This document shows positions 31,613-39,634 of a stretch of DNA of 64,000 nt, piece after piece. The DNA is from Thermodesulfovibrionia bacterium (lineage in GTDB: Bacteria > Nitrospirota > Thermodesulfovibrionia > UBA6902 > BMS3Bbin08). Made by a program: the position numbers and the translations under genes. The stretch's first letter is position 1. The number at the start of each line of letters is the position of its first letter. The notes beneath the pieces were generated by a model that was not told the origin of the DNA, did no database searches, and saw only the letters and a program-made list of their open reading frames with translations. Location: the NCBI GenBank assembly GCA_030694425.1, contig JAUXYI010000012.1, forward strand, positions 1 to 64,000. Reading direction: 5' to 3'.

Positions 31613-32539
31613 CTACTGCCACTTCCAAACTTCCGGTTTCCATATAATATCATGTTTGGATAACAGAAGCTTGCTGCAAGCTGGTTCAATAAACAGTTCT
31701 AAATGTTCAACTGCTTCAGCAAAAGTCTTGAAGGAATCCAGACGGCTTCTTTTTAAGAATGCAGACCATTGCGTTTGTTTTTCTGTTGAAGTCTTAAACT
31801 CTTCGGTAAATATAGATATTCTTTCGTTAAGTGGTGTCTTCCTATGCCTGAATGTCTCAACGATTGCCTTGTGAACGGTTTTGAGATTAAAAGGTTCTCG
31901 TGAAGCGAGGAATAAGATGTCGTAAATATCTTTCATGCGGCTGCTTAGAATAGTTAGTTTAACGAGCGCTTCAAACTTTTCAGCTATTGCTGATTCTCTG
32001 GAGTAAACTTGCAAATGGGGCACAGGTTGTTCTTCCAATAGCACAGGAAAATCCATTTCAATTGGTCCTGCTACTACAATATCGCCAAATCCTATATCCA
32101 GTTGCAGCACCTTTCTTGCATTATCAAGCATCGCCTCAATCTTTACTCTAATGCCTCCGTAATCAGCATTTTCTATAATACTCTCGGCAGAGATGCTTTC
32201 AATGACAAATGAAACTCCATCTATAGCATCAATACTTGCAACCTTTTTAATAATACTTTTAATCTTTTCCTTATCATTCTTTATTGACTTTAACAGAAAA
32301 TCTATATCTTTCGTAGGCCTTAAAAGAGGCATCTTATAGGCAAGCAAGAACAAAGCCCCCTTGAGTATAAAATTTTTTCTGAATTCAGAGATGGAAAGCC
32401 TGTATAGGAAGCGCTCCTAAAAGTATTGGAGCAAAATGAAATCGAAATCTCTTCCTGTTTCCCTTGCGATATTATAAAGCTTTGCCCTTATTGATGCGGC
32501 AAGGTTTGTTATTGTTTTCCTCTTTTTCAAGCCCTGCAC
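31613..32539 (-). pseudogene. AbiEii/AbiGii-type nucleotidyltransferase toxin gene with in-frame amber codon
   Basis: Frame from GTG 32539 reads ..KTITNLAASIRAKLYNIARETGRDFDFILLQYF[TAG 32417-32419]ERFLYRLSISEFRKNFILKGALFLLAYKMPLLRPTKDIDFLLK.. in one continuous frame. Confidence 0.85.
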
Positions 32540-32541
32540 CT

Positions 32542-33177
32542 TTATTGCTTAACAAGAGCCTTAAGATACGGCATCATTATGGTTTTAACTCTGCAGATTT
32601 CTGCATATTCCCTGAGCTTATTGATATTTGTATCTTTACGAAGCATATAGTTCTTTAGCCCTTCAAGTGCGATATCTTCTCCAATTTTATTGCGATACCG
32701 GAATACATCACAGATTGTTTTTTCCCTGTTATAAATTTTTACAATAACATCACCTGCCTTTATCTTCTCTATGCCCGTCCGGTAAAATCGGTCACGGAAA
32801 TAGAATATCTTCACAGGCGGATACTCTATCTTTGGTTTTTTGGCAGCATTTGGAATAGCCACGTATATTTCTGATGGAGTAAAAGTTGTGAGGCCATAAA
32901 ATTCAAGGGCTGAGGCGAGGCAAATAACACCTTCCGGTATTGCCCTGCTAACATCCATTATCCCTACACTTATTGTATAACCGGTTGCATTAATTGTTAT
33001 AGCAGGGAGCACAACATCTATAAAATTAGCAAGACGATAGAGTCCCGGCTTCACCTTCACAATGGTGCCTTTTTCCAGAAGGCGCGCAACATCACGAGTC
33101 TGAAAAGAAGCTTTTTTCAGCCCTTTCATCCTGGCATATCCGCCGTGACTCCTGAAATATTCAATAATTTTTTCCAT
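32542..33177 (-). CDS. AbiEi-type antitoxin
   Basis: MEKIIEYFRSHGGYARMKGLKKASFQTRDVARLLEKGTIVKVKPGLYRLA (N-terminal wHTH); ends 2 nt before the toxin GTG. Confidence 0.85.
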   Translation of the reverse strand: MEKIIEYFRSHGGYARMKGLKKASFQTRDVARLLEKGTIVKVKPGLYRLANFIDVVLPAITINATGYTISVGIMDVSRAIPEGVICLASALEFYGLTTFTPSEIYVAIPNAAKKPKIEYPPVKIFYFRDRFYRTGIEKIKAGDVIVKIYNREKTICDVFRYRNKIGEDIALEGLKNYMLRKDTNINKLREYAEICRVKTIMMPYLKALVKQ

Positions 33178-33433: not shown

Positions 33434-33869
33434 TTATAGAATCTTTGTTGGCAACACGGTAAAACTTTCTTTCCTCGCTGCTTCTCTGAGTCTGTGGTCA
33501 AAGCATACAAAGTGTTGTCCTTTAGGCTTTTTATCAGCCCAAACTATTGCAGCAGCCAACTGCAAAGAATCAGCAGCCCTTAAACGAATGGTTTAGGAGA
33601 AGGCGTACTGCTATGTCTCTTATATCTTCACTTGGCTCTATTTCAGTCCATACAGATGCTAAAGAGAAAAGTACTTCCCTGACCTGTTCCTCTTCCTGAT
33701 ACTTTAAAGAACCCTCACGGTATAAGCGGGCAAACGCTGAATAGCATTCTACGAGGCTTCCCCACCACACAACAAGAGCGTTATCTTTTTTAGCAATATC
33801 TTGAACGATTTTGGTTTGCGGCTCTTCAATACATAATGGAATAACAGCAGAAGCATCCCAGAACTTCAT
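33434..33869 (-). pseudogene. PIN-domain toxin gene with frameshift
   Basis: MKFWDASAVIPLCIEEPQTK..VVWWGSLVECYSAFARLYREG..RLLLNHS, then in the next frame LRAADSLQLAAAIVWADKKPKGQHFVCFDHRLREAARKESFTVLPTKIL*; shift at the TTT run (33582-33584). Confidence 0.85.
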
Positions 33870-34159
33870 CTGCCTTCCTCACGTTCTTTTAAAAGACTGG
33901 CCAGCGCAAGCCCTTTTTTATCCTTAGGCCTTGGCATTTTCCAAAAATCTGCCGGCAATTTCCCTCTTCCGATACGAGCTAAACCTGCCTTTTCCAATGT
34001 TAAGAGATGTGATGGTATTGCAGTTTCGCTCCTTTTAAGGGGAACTATCTTAGCAATTGGTTTCCCTCTATCCGTTACAATTACCTCCTCACCTGCTTTC
34101 ACTTTTAATAAATATTCGCTGAGAGATGCTTTTAATTTAGAAATCGCTGCCGTCTTCAT
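33866..34159 (-). CDS. Phd/YefM-family antitoxin
   Basis: MKTAAISKLKASLSEYLLKVKAGEEVIVTDRGKPIAKIVPLKRSE. Confidence 0.93.
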   Translation of the reverse strand: MKTAAISKLKASLSEYLLKVKAGEEVIVTDRGKPIAKIVPLKRSETAIPSHLLTLEKAGLARIGRGKLPADFWKMPRPKDKKGLALASLLKEREEGR

Positions 34160-34448: not shown

Positions 34449-34549
34449 GTCATTCCCGAATGTCTTAATCGGGAATCCAGTATTTAAGTTCATACCTCTG
34501 ACTTCCTCTATTGAGCCTGCCTGCCGGTAGACAGGTGAGGGGAATGACA
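34449..34549. repeat. gtcattcccg...ggggaatgac palindromic repeat
   Basis: gtcattcccgaatgtcttaatcgggaatccag...gcctgcctgccggtagacaggtgaggggaatgac. Confidence 0.75.
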
Positions 34550-34641: not shown

Positions 34642-35349
34642 TCAGTAAAATGTGTAGACCCGCCCCCCATCTTTTTTGCCCCCATCTTTTTTGCCGTCCA
34701 ATTTAGGATGTTTGCAAATCTTATTTAGAAAACAAACTCGACAACGTGGTCGGTAAGGGATACATACCAGTCTGCCATGCTGGATTAGATTGACATGTAA
34801 TCTGTATCGAATTAACCGGGGAATCAATCCTTGGATATAGTCCTGTATATTTATAGTATATCTGCTATGTGAAGGAATCCAACCGAGTCTTTTAATTATC
34901 CGAAAGCAATGAGAATCTACTGGGAAAACATCTCTTGCGAATGAATACATCATAATGCATCTAGCACTTTTCAATCCAACCCCGGGGAGTGTCAATAAAT
35001 ATTCCTCTAAGCGCGTATTATCAAATGACTTTAATTTTCGTAGTGATAATACATTCCAGTCCTTCTTTATTTTTGTTAAGATGTTCTTCAAGTTGCGAGC
35101 TTTCTGTTTAGATAGACCAGCGTTCTTCAATACCTCAGCTATCCGGTTAACTCTTGCGGTATAAACATCTTCCCAATTGGGAAAAACCCTTTTAAAATAG
35201 ATATACGTTCTTTGTAAACTCGGGTTTGTTGTTCTTAGTGATATTAAAATATATAACAATTCATTGAGAGGATTGTTTTTATTTCCTAAGTTTGATATTC
35301 TATAATTTTTAGAAAGCATGGTCTCAACTTTAGAAATTATCTTGTTCAT
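34642..35349 (-). CDS. Endonuclease III-family HhH-GPD DNA glycosylase with [4Fe-4S] loop
   Basis: LPGVGLKSARCIMMYSFARDVFPVDSHCFRIIKRLGW retains the Nth-type HhH Lys and the Asp of VDSH; C-X6-C-X2-C-X5-C (CIPYRPRCRVCFLNKIC). Confidence 0.88.
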   Translation of the reverse strand: MNKIISKVETMLSKNYRISNLGNKNNPLNELLYILISLRTTNPSLQRTYIYFKRVFPNWEDVYTARVNRIAEVLKNAGLSKQKARNLKNILTKIKKDWNVLSLRKLKSFDNTRLEEYLLTLPGVGLKSARCIMMYSFARDVFPVDSHCFRIIKRLGWIPSHSRYTINIQDYIQGLIPRLIRYRLHVNLIQHGRLVCIPYRPRCRVCFLNKICKHPKLDGKKDGGKKDGGRVYTFY

Positions 35350-35371
35350 TTTGAACTCTTATGCCTATGCT

Positions 35372-36568
35372 TTATATTGTAGCGGGCTGCGAGGATGGGT
35401 CTAGTTTTAGACGTTTCCTACTTCTTTCAAAATTGCTCAATAACTTATCAGCACTTGGAGGCATAGAGATTCCATAATCCATCAAACTTTTTAAATTCAG
35501 GACTTGTAACAGTGCACACTCCTTTACTAATTCAGGATCAAAACCGTGAACAAAAATATTTAATGCTGGGGAAGCCCAAATAAAAGTTTCTCCTAAACCA
35601 TAAAAAACTATTTTATCTTCAGTTACCATAAAATGATTTAGAAAAAGTGTCTTTTCTTCAGCGCTAAAAGACTGGTGTATCAGACCCACTTGGCCTTTTG
35701 AGTCAATGATTTCTAAACCAGTATCTATTATGTCAGCCTCTCTTTCTGGCTCTGGCCAGGGATTTTGGGGAGTATCACTTGGCATTTCTAACAACATTAA
35801 TGCTTTTGATTGTTCATATCTCAGTATGAATAGAATCTTAGGTATTTCATGTAAAATATCTATCGAGTCTTCTGCTTGATGAGAGGTGAATAAGCTTTTC
35901 CAGTACTCTCTAAATTCTGGTGGTAATTCATTACCGTTTAACTCTGTGATAATGCAACCCAATGAAAACATTCTCTCTTTACTTTTTCCTCGAAGTTTTG
36001 GCAACGAATTGAGCGTAGAAAAAATTGTCATATTATATGGATTAGTGACCCGGTCATTCTTTGTTGCGATACCATTATCTTGCAGGAACATCTCACTACA
36101 CAATAATCCATCTCCAATCGCCGCATTTTGTTGAAAAAAAGTTCCAGCTTCCGTCGTTGTGTTATGTCCTTTGAACCTCTCGGTATTATGCACTTTAATT
36201 TTTTTTAAAAACTTACGACACTGATCTGATGCAACTTTAACAGAAAAAATCTTGCATTTGTCCGATAAATTATCTCCTTTGACTCCTAATGCGTAAGTTA
36301 TTCCATTTGGCCACAAATCAACTATAGCGCCTGCTTGACCTGAAAATATATCAGGTGTTTTAGTTTTTTGATCCATGTTTACTGGTCCTGAGTTTGAGTT
36401 CCATAAGGGTACTATACTTACCTCATCTCTTGGTATTTCCCCTTCCAATAGAGCGGTTACTAAATCTCCATGGGTATGACTTTCAAATGGATTTTTGTTG
36501 CCATATCTTTCCTTCCATGCAATATATGTAAAAGAATATTTTCCCCCTACGATGTGTACTTTCTTCAT
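35372..36568 (-). CDS. Unknown protein with N-terminal prephenate-dehydratase-like domain
   Basis: VHIVGGKYSFTYIAWKERYG..LVTALLEGEIPRDEVSIVPLWNSNSGPV; TTTEAGTFFQQNAAIGDGLLCSEMF..RVTNPYNMTIFSTL compares with PDT motifs (G..GTFTH.A, VPLEN, AA.EA, N.TRF). Confidence 0.5.
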   Translation of the reverse strand: MKKVHIVGGKYSFTYIAWKERYGNKNPFESHTHGDLVTALLEGEIPRDEVSIVPLWNSNSGPVNMDQKTKTPDIFSGQAGAIVDLWPNGITYALGVKGDNLSDKCKIFSVKVASDQCRKFLKKIKVHNTERFKGHNTTTEAGTFFQQNAAIGDGLLCSEMFLQDNGIATKNDRVTNPYNMTIFSTLNSLPKLRGKSKERMFSLGCIITELNGNELPPEFREYWKSLFTSHQAEDSIDILHEIPKILFILRYEQSKALMLLEMPSDTPQNPWPEPEREADIIDTGLEIIDSKGQVGLIHQSFSAEEKTLFLNHFMVTEDKIVFYGLGETFIWASPALNIFVHGFDPELVKECALLQVLNLKSLMDYGISMPPSADKLLSNFERSRKRLKLDPSSQPATI

Positions 36569-36586
36569 ATAAATAATATCACCTTG

Positions 36587-37702
36587 TTATTTGTCCCTTA
36601 GCCTCGTAACTGCTGAAAGGAGTCTCTTTTTTAACTCACCAGAAATTTCTGTTCTCTCTTTTTTGGACAGGCTTTCCAACCATTCACAAAAATGCAATAT
36701 TTTCGGTCCGGCTTCCTTCGGTCTCGAGTAGTCTTGATAGATTGCTCTAGCTAATTCAAAATTACCATTCGGTTTTTCCAAGTGAGACCTTGCCGGTTCA
36801 TATCTTACTATTTCAGCTAATTCTCTGATTTTAGTAATTGAGTTAATCTGCTGATTCAAAAGATATTTGTATAATAGCTGCTTAGATTTCCTCAATATTT
36901 TTTTATCTCTAATAGGCGTGTTACCCATACATGTTTTATTATAGAATTCTTCAAAAAAATGGAATTTTGCCCTTGTAAACCGTTCGGCGCTTTGCTTGGT
37001 TTGTGCCGTATCTCTCTCAGCATAATTTATGTATTCATTAATCATTCCCAAAACACTTTTAAATCTCTTAAGGTTCTGCTTATTAACGCCTAAAAGGTAA
37101 GCTACTTGCTTGTAGGCTTTTTCTTCATCACATTTAAACTCAATAAAAAACTTGTCAAACTGTTCTACCGCAAATTTAGCTCTTACCTCTCTCGTCCATG
37201 GTTCTTTATAATCAGGCAAGAAATTCATCTCTGCTATGATTTTCAATCTCAACTCTTTATCGATAGTAGGCTTTAAACAATAGACCGGTACTTTAGTAAA
37301 ATTTTCGTTAATTTCTTTTTCGTGGGCAATCAAATATTTACAGGCAAGGAACCTTCTATTACCATCTAACAATTCTTTCTTGTAAGATAACGTTAGGGGG
37401 ACACGGACTCCGTTTTTTTTAATCGATCCTGCTAATTCTTGTATTTTATGGAGTCCTTGTTTCAATATATAATCTACAATTTCCTCGTCTGATAAATTTC
37501 TTATTCCCTTTTTGCCTAATTCCTGCAAGAGATGTTCTAAATCAAGTGTTGTTCTGTTATTGTCTCTCCATAATTTAATCTCTTTTACTTCGACAAACCC
37601 ACTGTAAGTTTCAACCTTTGTGTCATGGAATAACACCTCTTTTTTCACAGGATTGATTAACCATTTAGGTGGAGACCACTTATAAGTTTTTTTATCCTTC
37701 AT
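36587..37702 (-). CDS. ParB-like (ParB/Srx fold) protein
   Basis: VEVKEIKLWRDNNRTTLDLEHL...LAGSIKKNGVRVPLTLSYKKELLDGNRRFLACKYL ParB box; KYKQVAYLLGVNKQNLKRF-type HTH region. Confidence 0.75.
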   Translation of the reverse strand: MKDKKTYKWSPPKWLINPVKKEVLFHDTKVETYSGFVEVKEIKLWRDNNRTTLDLEHLLQELGKKGIRNLSDEEIVDYILKQGLHKIQELAGSIKKNGVRVPLTLSYKKELLDGNRRFLACKYLIAHEKEINENFTKVPVYCLKPTIDKELRLKIIAEMNFLPDYKEPWTREVRAKFAVEQFDKFFIEFKCDEEKAYKQVAYLLGVNKQNLKRFKSVLGMINEYINYAERDTAQTKQSAERFTRAKFHFFEEFYNKTCMGNTPIRDKKILRKSKQLLYKYLLNQQINSITKIRELAEIVRYEPARSHLEKPNGNFELARAIYQDYSRPKEAGPKILHFCEWLESLSKKERTEISGELKKRLLSAVTRLRDK

Positions 37703-38820
37703 TTTCGTGCCTCCTCTATAAATTTTAGTATAGCCTTACCAATACTCATGGATAATTTTACAGGAACAGCGTTACCAATCTGTCTATATTTATGCGTTAA
37801 ATTACCCGCAAATTTCCAATAAGACGGGAAGCCTTGAATTAATGCACATTCGATATAAGTTAATGGTCTTGGTTTGTCGGGATGGCATAGATTTGTTGCG
37901 CGACCTGCTGGGTTAGTAGTGATTGTAGGACTCGGTTTATCCCATGAAAGCCTACGACAAAAACCCACCCGTCCGCCTGTTGCGTACCAACCCTTTCCCA
38001 TTGCTTTCTTTTGTAGCTGGACTGGCAGTACATTCCAATTTTGACCTTGTTTGATTAACCCTTTCGAAAAAATCTCATAACGGAGCTTATCGTACGGAAT
38101 ATAGTCGACCCCTTCCTTCTCGTACTTGCCATTTAATTGGCCTATAACTTTATTAATTGATAGATGGTTGTCCTTAAATTTACCGACTGGTTTGTCGAGA
38201 TTATGTAGTCCTCTAACCCCGACAACAAAGACTCTCTTTCTTTTTTGAGCAACACCAAAATCCGCAGCGTTCAATTCCCAGACGGAAATACTGTAACCGT
38301 CCTTTTCCCCCCGTCGCAGTTTATGGTCAAACTCTTTTTGAATAAAGTCCCATGCAGAGCCTAAACTCTCAACCTCTGAAAATTTGGCATGTTTTAAGGT
38401 GCGTTCTTTAAGTGGTCTATGCTGTATGGCAGCAGACATAATCCCCTTAACATTTTCGAAGATAAAAAAACTAGGACGGATATCCCAAACAATATCTAAA
38501 AATTTCTTAAACAACATCCCTTCTGATGACGAGACTGAATGTCTCCTGCCTACTGTACTAAAGGGCTGACACGGGGGACCACCCGAAATGAGAGTTACTT
38601 CGCCTTTTTTCAATCCAGACACGCTAAGAACCTCCTTAGCGGTAACATCGTTAATATCTTTTTGGATGATAGAACCTAATAGGTTAGGTCTATTTGAGAG
38701 AATAGTTTGAACAGCAATTGGATCTTTTTCAATACATGCTCTGACTTTAAACCCAGCTTTTTCAAGCCCGAGGTCAAGACCAAAAGCTCCTGTAAATAGA
38801 GAAATCGCAGTTAGTTCCAT
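37699..38820 (-). CDS. DNA (cytosine-5-)-methyltransferase
   Basis: Motif I SLFTGAFGLDLGLEKAGF, IV SGGPPCQPFSTVGRR, VI FIFENVKG, VIII QKRKRVFVVG, X YRQIGNAVPVKLSMSIG; 4-nt overlap with next gene. Confidence 0.96.
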   Translation of the reverse strand: MELTAISLFTGAFGLDLGLEKAGFKVRACIEKDPIAVQTILSNRPNLLGSIIQKDINDVTAKEVLSVSGLKKGEVTLISGGPPCQPFSTVGRRHSVSSSEGMLFKKFLDIVWDIRPSFFIFENVKGIMSAAIQHRPLKERTLKHAKFSEVESLGSAWDFIQKEFDHKLRRGEKDGYSISVWELNAADFGVAQKRKRVFVVGVRGLHNLDKPVGKFKDNHLSINKVIGQLNGKYEKEGVDYIPYDKLRYEIFSKGLIKQGQNWNVLPVQLQKKAMGKGWYATGGRVGFCRRLSWDKPSPTITTNPAGRATNLCHPDKPRPLTYIECALIQGFPSYWKFAGNLTHKYRQIGNAVPVKLSMSIGKAILKFIEEARK

Positions 38821-38959: not shown

Positions 38960-39175
38960 CCTTTGTCATAGTTAAAAAATATGATACGCCACAATAGAGG
39001 AAAAGTCCAATAGAGCTATAGTTTTGCCAAAGAAGGATAATAAAAATTCCCCTCACCCCTGCCTACCGGCAGGCAGGCTTGCCCTCTCCTCTACGAGCCA
39101 TGGCCGCCGGGGGAGAGGGGATTACGGTGTGCTTCAGTGCAAAAGTGAAGAAAATCAGAAATCGTTTAATCTGGA
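38960..39175. repeat. About 200-bp direct repeat, copy 1
   Basis: tttgtcatagttaaaaaatatgatacgcca..atagaggaaaagtccaatagagc..atag, then ctctcctctacgagccatggccgccgggggagagggg. Confidence 0.8.
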
Positions 39176-39301
39176 TTCGTGACTGTTGTCAGTGGCGGAA
39201 GAAGTCTTAAGAATGGTGCGACTTATTGCATAGATTCTTGCGTTTAGTAGCGCTATATGCTAATAGGGTTGCGTTTGGTTCAGAGACAGTTTTAAACGGC
39301 A

Positions 39302-39439
39302 GACACGCTTGGGAGCGGGTATCCGAAAGGGAATAATTTTGTCGTCTCATCGGATGTTACAAAAGGTTTTACGCGTGCATATGATAACATACAGGTCAGA
39401 TTTATAAACCTTGGTGAATTGATAAAGGCAGTAAGCTAA
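39302..39439 (+). pseudogene. 3' coding remnant between the two direct repeats
   Basis: DTLGSGYPKGNNFVVSSDVTKGFTRAYDNIQVRFINLGELIKAVS* with a stop just upstream and no start. Confidence 0.35.
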
Positions 39440-39451
39440 TAACAGCCCTCT

Positions 39452-39634
39452 CTTGTCATAGTTAAAAAATATGATACGCCATGATAGAGGAAAAGTCCAA
39501 TAGAGCCATAGAGCAAAAGAGCAGAAGATATACCCCCTCACCCTTCCCCTCTCCTCTACGAGCCATGGCCACCGGGGGAGAGGGAACTATTGTATGTTTA
39601 GCTCAGAAGTGAGGAAGTCAGAAAACCCCTTAAT
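39452..39634. repeat. About 200-bp direct repeat, copy 2
   Basis: cttgtcatagttaaaaaatatgatacgccatgatagaggaaaagtccaatagagccatag...ctctcctctacgagccatggccaccgggggagaggg. Confidence 0.8.

Follow-up and report, generated by a model that had tools for sequence, protein, structure and literature searches.

We find that the genes for a DNA methyltransferase, a ParB-like protein and a prephenate dehydratase-like (PDT-like) protein make up a recurring unit, which in a Thermodesulfovibrionia bacterium (phylum Nitrospirota) is joined in one operon by a DNA glycosylase gene, a separate module. The operon lies in the first 64,000 nucleotides (nt) of contig JAUXYI010000012.1, the stretch analysed here and referred to as the window. 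The system is of the C5-methyltransferase-based, restriction-modification-like kind, with a pairing of ParB-like and PDT-like proteins that appears to be new, and it is probably an unusual system for marking self and non-self DNA. In the open reading frame (ORF) listing, the four genes follow one another on the minus strand in the order given here:

37699..38820, minus strand: C5-cytosine DNA methyltransferase (MTase), 373 amino acids (aa), predicted GGWCC-type target (PF00145, E 9e-61; alignment and tree with SinI-linked MTases)
36587..37702, minus strand: ParB/Srx-fold protein, 371 aa, with an invariant LLDGNRR box and a 4-nt overlap with the MTase gene (NCBIfam, alignment, Foldseek)
35372..36568, minus strand: PDT-like protein, 398 aa, with an N-terminal prephenate-dehydratase-like domain (about residues 5-187) and a C-terminal domain of ~200 aa (Pfam, profile match)
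34642..35349, minus strand: predicted HhH-GPD/4Fe-4S DNA glycosylase-AP lyase, 235 aa, keeping K127 and D145 (Pfam, NCBIfam, tree)

The MTase and ParB-like genes overlap at 37699-37702, and gaps of 18 nt (36569-36586) and 22 nt (35350-35371) separate the ParB-like from the PDT-like gene and the PDT-like from the glycosylase gene, in exact agreement with the spacing given in an earlier, sequence-only reading of this DNA. All four genes are intact and tightly spaced, with no sign of decay. That reading also described a C5-MTase operon lacking a canonical restriction endonuclease, and indeed none of a known family turns up when the operon is scanned with Pfam, NCBIfam and PADLOC; neither do the ORF listing and Pfam reveal a ParA partner gene in it. 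PADLOC matches the MTase with its MTase_II model and the HhH protein with its 'Type II nicking endonuclease' model (E 8e-14). Its lack of any model for the other two proteins, together with our failure to find their pairing in the open-licence literature, agrees with the proposal that the operon is undescribed.

The MTase, ParB-like and PDT-like genes occur together in two other genomes, from two phyla (Nitrospirota and Omnitrophota), and the ParB-like and PDT-like genes co-occur in a third, Ghiorsea; in all four genomes that carry the close ParB-like gene, the PDT-like gene is present as well. This recurrence rules out a chance grouping of the three. The Nitrospirota case (G198), a Nitrospirae metagenome-assembled genome (MAG) of the window's class (contig JAJYIF010000012.1, loci L004, L008 and L012), holds all four genes within 5.4 kb, so the association proposed from the window alone is found elsewhere. 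There the MTase gene (plus strand) converges on the PDT-like and ParB-like genes (minus strand), which are followed by an Mrr_cat gene and then by the glycosylase gene. The Omnitrophota case (L010, from a biofilm MAG) has the MTase-ParB-PDT order of the window, and upstream of its MTase gene, at a distance of 145 bp, lies a PDDEXK_5-like gene (below the Pfam cut-off); the 0.6 kb between its PDT-like gene and the contig end contain no glycosylase gene. In Ghiorsea (L011/L063), the ParB-like and PDT-like genes stand on separate contigs of one genome, each truncated by a contig end, and the two are likely adjacent. The ParB-like gene there is transcribed divergently from the genes of an Eco47II restriction enzyme and of a C5-MTase. 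Neither the Omnitrophota nor the Ghiorsea assembly contains a close copy of the glycosylase. A fifth PDT-like member is a C-terminal fragment at a contig start (G429, L050), followed by ORFs that, read by eye without a family search, resemble PLD, GIY-YIG and PD-(D/E)XK proteins; no ParB-like gene was found in that assembly. The surroundings of the units are rich in defence genes, including PD-(D/E)XK-like, Mrr and SNF2 genes.

The identities of the three proteins fall together, which fits inheritance as a unit. Against L010, the window proteins are 64% (MTase), 53% (ParB-like) and 42% (PDT-like) identical, and against L004 of G198 43%, 28% and 23%. Searches with the ParB-like profile place the close family only in the window's genome and G198, both among 231 genomes of the window's class and in a sample of 251 genomes of its phylum, only in L010's genome among 285 Omnitrophota, and only in the query genome among 399 genomes of the phylum of Ghiorsea. 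A third, weak match in the window's class (4.7e-9) and one in Omnitrophota (3e-9) are different ParB proteins. By tblastn, the PDT-like gene was not found in plasmids or phages, nor the ParB-like gene in plasmids; scans of viral contigs with the ParB-like, PDT-like and glycosylase proteins gave nothing useful, the sole ParB match (L018) being a short one in an unrelated phage-like contig. Other candidates were set aside as belonging to other ParB-like families (L052 and L053) or as an ordinary chromosomal ParB (L013). G198 has a second, more distant ParB-like gene (E 7e-27), followed by an SNF2 helicase gene and a small ORF (L008:14654-18132), and in L052 a related ParB and SNF2 pair stands beside conjugation-type genes.

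The window MTase carries the PCQ, ENV, QxRxR and GNAV motifs. Among full-length plasmid relatives, the closest share 34-42% identity with it, and SinI-family restriction enzymes adjoin all three of the annotated ones inspected. With the Ghiorsea Eco47II-linked MTase as outgroup, the tree groups the window, L010 and L004 MTases in one clade (support 0.98) and places the SinI-linked MTases (0.955) as its sister; to these the window MTase is about 40% identical, with a similar target-recognition region. Because SinI and Eco47II, which are linked to related MTases, both cut GGWCC, the window MTase would be expected to have a GGWCC-type target. The observed/expected ratio of GGWCC is 0.70 in 407 kb of the window's genome (loci L086-L105 plus the window) versus 0.82 in a family member lacking the system, a mild under-representation that is compatible with such a target, weak and not decisive. 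A search of the window's genome for the SinI nuclease (PF09570) gave no match, and its control likewise gave none. The same 407 kb are strongly depleted in GATC (0.27), GGCC (0.38) and CCWGG (0.51), compared with 1.03, 0.79 and 0.83 in the family member, which suggests other restriction, past or present. On contig C25 of this genome (L009:5598-6862), a C5-MTase fragment of 168 aa lacking the C-terminal motifs overlaps a restriction-enzyme-like ORF of 253 aa, with an HNH-like ORF upstream; this is possibly a decayed restriction-modification (R-M) system.

The ParB-like protein appears to belong to the ParB/Srx superfamily, as judged from its motif and predicted fold. Family models match it weakly, ParB_N below the Pfam cut-off (E 0.11, 13 bits vs 26.3) and TIGR00180 at E 6e-4 in NCBIfam. 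With a predicted model (pLDDT 70), the first Foldseek matches are Noc and pNOB8 ParB-N at probabilities of 1.00 and 0.98, with weak E-values of about 0.01-0.03. Furthermore, the LLDGNRR motif, an arginine-bearing box II, is invariant in the family alignment. ParB/Srx domains of R-M, conflict and modification systems are described as binding NTP, as hydrolysing it or as nicking DNA under its control (PMC5512222; PMC12839542; PMC12704722), and by analogy with these relatives an NTP-gated role on DNA is our best prediction for the window protein.

In the PDT-like protein, the N-terminal part is, by its profile matches, a genuine homologue of the PDT fold: PF00800 matches at E 2.8e-10 (40.7 bits vs a cut-off of 25.2), and the profile of the protein finds solved PDTs (2qmw, E 5e-9). 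The three complete copies all have WNS in place of the ENS motif, so that the Glu is lost, and N-x-T-x-F in place of TRF, so that the Arg is lost; they keep the Asn/Ser/Gly and Gln-Cys pocket positions. The C-terminal domain of ~200 aa, common to all five family members (two of them fragments), does not resemble the ACT domain of true PDTs. With key motif residues and the ACT domain lost, the protein is very unlikely to work as a prephenate dehydratase, and we conclude from these sequence features that it is a repurposed module. An AlphaFold model from a three-row alignment reached a pLDDT of 36 and was not used for fold search. Other proteins matching the PDT domain were set aside as ordinary prephenate dehydratases, some in aromatic-amino-acid pathway neighbourhoods (L005-L007) and some matching that domain only and not the C-terminal one (L032-L049).

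The glycosylase matches HhH-GPD above the Pfam cut-off (E 7e-10) and has K127, D145 and the iron-sulfur (FeS) cysteines C196, C203, C206 and C212. It is 53% identical to the G198 glycosylase; on their own profile these two score E 2e-143 or better, and the other HhH proteins of both genomes 1e-14 or weaker. The wider clade comprises 13 copies in 12 genomes of the window's class, and its full-length members group together (support 0.986) apart from housekeeping Nth. In these full-length members, Lys127 and Asp145 are conserved and the FeS cysteines almost completely so; the G198 copy is without the fourth. The sequence-only reading had treated the glycosylase as a part specific to this operon, a view that is not supported, since the clade recurs beside several unrelated R-M systems. 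R-M genes lie within 5 kb of 8 of the 13 copies (the window, G198, L077, L078, L079, L081, L082 and L083); the other five are within 1 kb of a contig end, with neighbourhoods half seen. The neighbours are a TdeIII-type system with an N4/N6 MTase plus MjaI with another N4/N6 MTase (L079), a TdeIII-type system with an N4/N6 MTase whose TdeIII-like gene start is near-identical to that of L079 (L077), a TdeIII fragment (L082), an N4/N6 MTase (L078), and an N4/N6 MTase with HNH (L081 and L083). These eight copies are not all independent, the TdeIII cases being close relatives, and they represent at least three unrelated R-M types. In L079 (186-7016), the two R-M systems are lined up with an AIPR gene and with the glycosylase. 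Between the N4/N6 MTase and the glycosylase, a methylase-associated X1 (MTaX1) and HNH_2 protein is intact in L083 (7674-8678) and apparently in pieces in L081 (7855-9475).

The role that would explain the glycosylase best is repair of deaminated methylcytosine, that is, of T arising from 5-methylcytosine (5mC) and U arising from N4-methylcytosine, because it accounts for all of the R-M neighbourhoods, and because systems equipped with TdeIII or MjaI would have no need of a further restriction effector. Some of the linked MTases may be N4-methylcytosine enzymes, to judge from their sequence motifs. Since the clade adjoins several unrelated R-M systems and has no close copy in the Omnitrophota and Ghiorsea genomes, a general accessory of R-M systems is a likelier identity for the glycosylase than the effector of this system.

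We tentatively favour, at somewhat less than an even chance for the whole, a C5-methylation self/non-self cassette. In this scheme, the MTase, of a SinI-related lineage and probably specific for GGWCC, would mark the host DNA; unmarked DNA would be the target of a partner pair, the NTP-binding ParB-like protein with the protein derived from PDT, which would replace or complement a classical restriction nuclease; and the glycosylase would be an exchangeable accessory removing the T (or U) left by deaminated methylated cytosine. Most likely, the ParB-like protein would be the NTP-gated member of the pair that acts on DNA, as a clamp or a nickase, with the PDT-like protein as a regulator repurposed to bind a ligand or a partner. 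The stronger proposal, that the pair constitutes a restriction effector of a novel type, cognate to C5 methylation and outside the known nuclease families, in which an NTP-gated ParB-fold DNA enzyme would be controlled by a repurposed amino-acid-biosynthesis fold, is possible, though on the whole we doubt it. Several observations weigh against the scheme: a nuclease of its own is present at the Ghiorsea locus, and genes of PD-(D/E)XK type lie close by in L010 and L008; no PADLOC defence family matches the ParB-like or PDT-like protein; the depletion of GGWCC is mild and is exceeded by that of GATC and GGCC; and no more than three contiguous units and a single split case are known.

The nucleases near the Ghiorsea, L010 and L008 units mean that the ParB-PDT pair may be an accessory and not the effector. 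Such a pair would serve C5 R-M systems as a regulator or an immunity factor, the cutting being done by ordinary neighbouring nucleases, and the window copy would be an orphan MTase with accessories that remained after loss of the nuclease. The Eco47II enzyme adjoining the ParB-like gene in Ghiorsea, the PDDEXK_5-like gene upstream of the L010 MTase, the Mrr_cat gene between the ParB-like and glycosylase genes in G198 and the nuclease-like ORFs after the L050 fragment all fit this explanation, as does the operon without a nuclease gene in the window. However, the nearby nucleases do not share a family, a mixture to be expected by chance in defence islands, and the four intact, tightly spaced window genes do not look like a decaying system. 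We consider this explanation, the main rival, unlikely.

In a non-nucleolytic hypermodification pathway, the ParB-like protein would be a DpdB-like NTPase and the PDT-like protein an enzyme elaborating the base; such a pathway appears improbable. DpdB is indeed the ParB-like ATPase of a DNA-modification system (PMC12839542), and the PDT domain keeps the N-S...G, Q-C and N-x-T-x-F pocket residues. Nevertheless, the lost Glu of ENS and Arg of TRF argue against retained PDT chemistry, the operon has no kinase, transferase or hydroxylase, and elaborating a C5-methyl group is difficult when no oxygenase is at hand. It is more improbable still that the glycosylase/AP lyase itself restricts by excising bases at unmethylated sites, as R.PabI does. 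Restriction glycosylases exist (PMC10273834, PMC4357717), the bifunctional residues K127 and D145 are in place, and the operon offers no other nuclease; yet the clade also adjoins R-M systems of different targets that have their own restriction enzymes (TdeIII, MjaI), it has no close copy in the Omnitrophota and Ghiorsea genomes, and the fold of R.PabI is a different one (HALFPIPE, PMC7806768). Least probable of all, and scarcely credible, is a 5mC eraser like plant ROS1/DEMETER that would make the marking reversible: ROS1 ranks with the top matches to solved structures (E 5e-19), but the match covers the common EndoIII core, Deinococcus radiodurans EndoIII-1 scores higher, and the clade also accompanies N4/N6-type MTases.

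If the ParB-PDT pair does restrict, it would be a restriction effector without a known nuclease domain, and a metabolic-enzyme fold would have joined DNA self/non-self discrimination. Furthermore, the presence of an EndoIII-like clade beside R-M systems of different MTase families raises the testable question of whether dedicated repair of the mutational cost of cytosine methylation exists outside Vsr and Mig.

The sequence-only reading had placed the operon among repeats and decayed toxin-antitoxin genes. The repeats are there, beginning with an inverted repeat of 29 nt that brackets the operon:

34514..34542, no strand: 29-nt inverted repeat, left arm (repeat search)
39051..39079, no strand: 29-nt inverted repeat, right arm (repeat search)

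Two pairs of direct repeats of 57-59 nt lie at 38963-39599, between the MTase gene and the next upstream gene; they are 95% and 86% identical, with spacings of 490 and 465 nt. The decay is borne out in part: the AbiEii/AbiEi pair at 31613-33177 looks intact, whereas a Phd/YefM antitoxin gene overlaps a short ORF (99 aa) that reads like a truncated PIN toxin (33570-34159, with the short ORF at 33570-33869).

Among known systems, the SinI and Eco47II Type II R-M systems come closest on the MTase side, through the sister-clade relationship and the similar target-recognition region and through the Ghiorsea ParB-like gene beside an Eco47II enzyme and MTase; the window operon differs in having ParB-like and PDT-like genes instead of a SinI or Eco47II nuclease. 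Mig (V.MthTI; structure 1kea), the T:G glycosylase that accompanies a C5 R-M system in Methanothermobacter, is likewise an HhH-GPD and FeS glycosylase in an operon with a C5-MTase (phmmer to 1kea, E 2e-13). Mig has a Tyr at the position of the catalytic Lys, where the window glycosylase has the EndoIII-type K127; the latter is also nearer to D. radiodurans EndoIII-1, and its clade stands beside N4/N6-type R-M systems as well. EndoIII-1 (8a5c, 4unf) is indeed its best sequence match (E 6e-28; NF053634, E 2.5e-32), although at 112 vs 400 bits it falls well below the equivalog cut-off of that family. With R.PabI restriction glycosylases it would have the logic of base excision in common, but their HALFPIPE fold contrasts with HhH-GPD. 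We found no open-licence literature joining a PDT-like protein to restriction or to ParB. True prephenate dehydratases (PF00800) have in common with the window protein a PDT domain above the Pfam cut-off and the match to 2qmw, and they differ from it in the changes of ENS to WNS and of TRF to T-x-F, in the absent ACT domain and in the extra C-terminal domain of ~200 aa. Finally, the ParB/Srx proteins of conflict systems (GmrS, Osa, DpdB, DndB, DdrB-like) resemble the window ParB-like protein in the ParB fold and its Arg-bearing box II, the absence of an adjoining ParA and the DNA-modification neighbours, whereas the latter represents a separate, long family (371 aa) without a PADLOC match and with a PDT-like protein as its partner.

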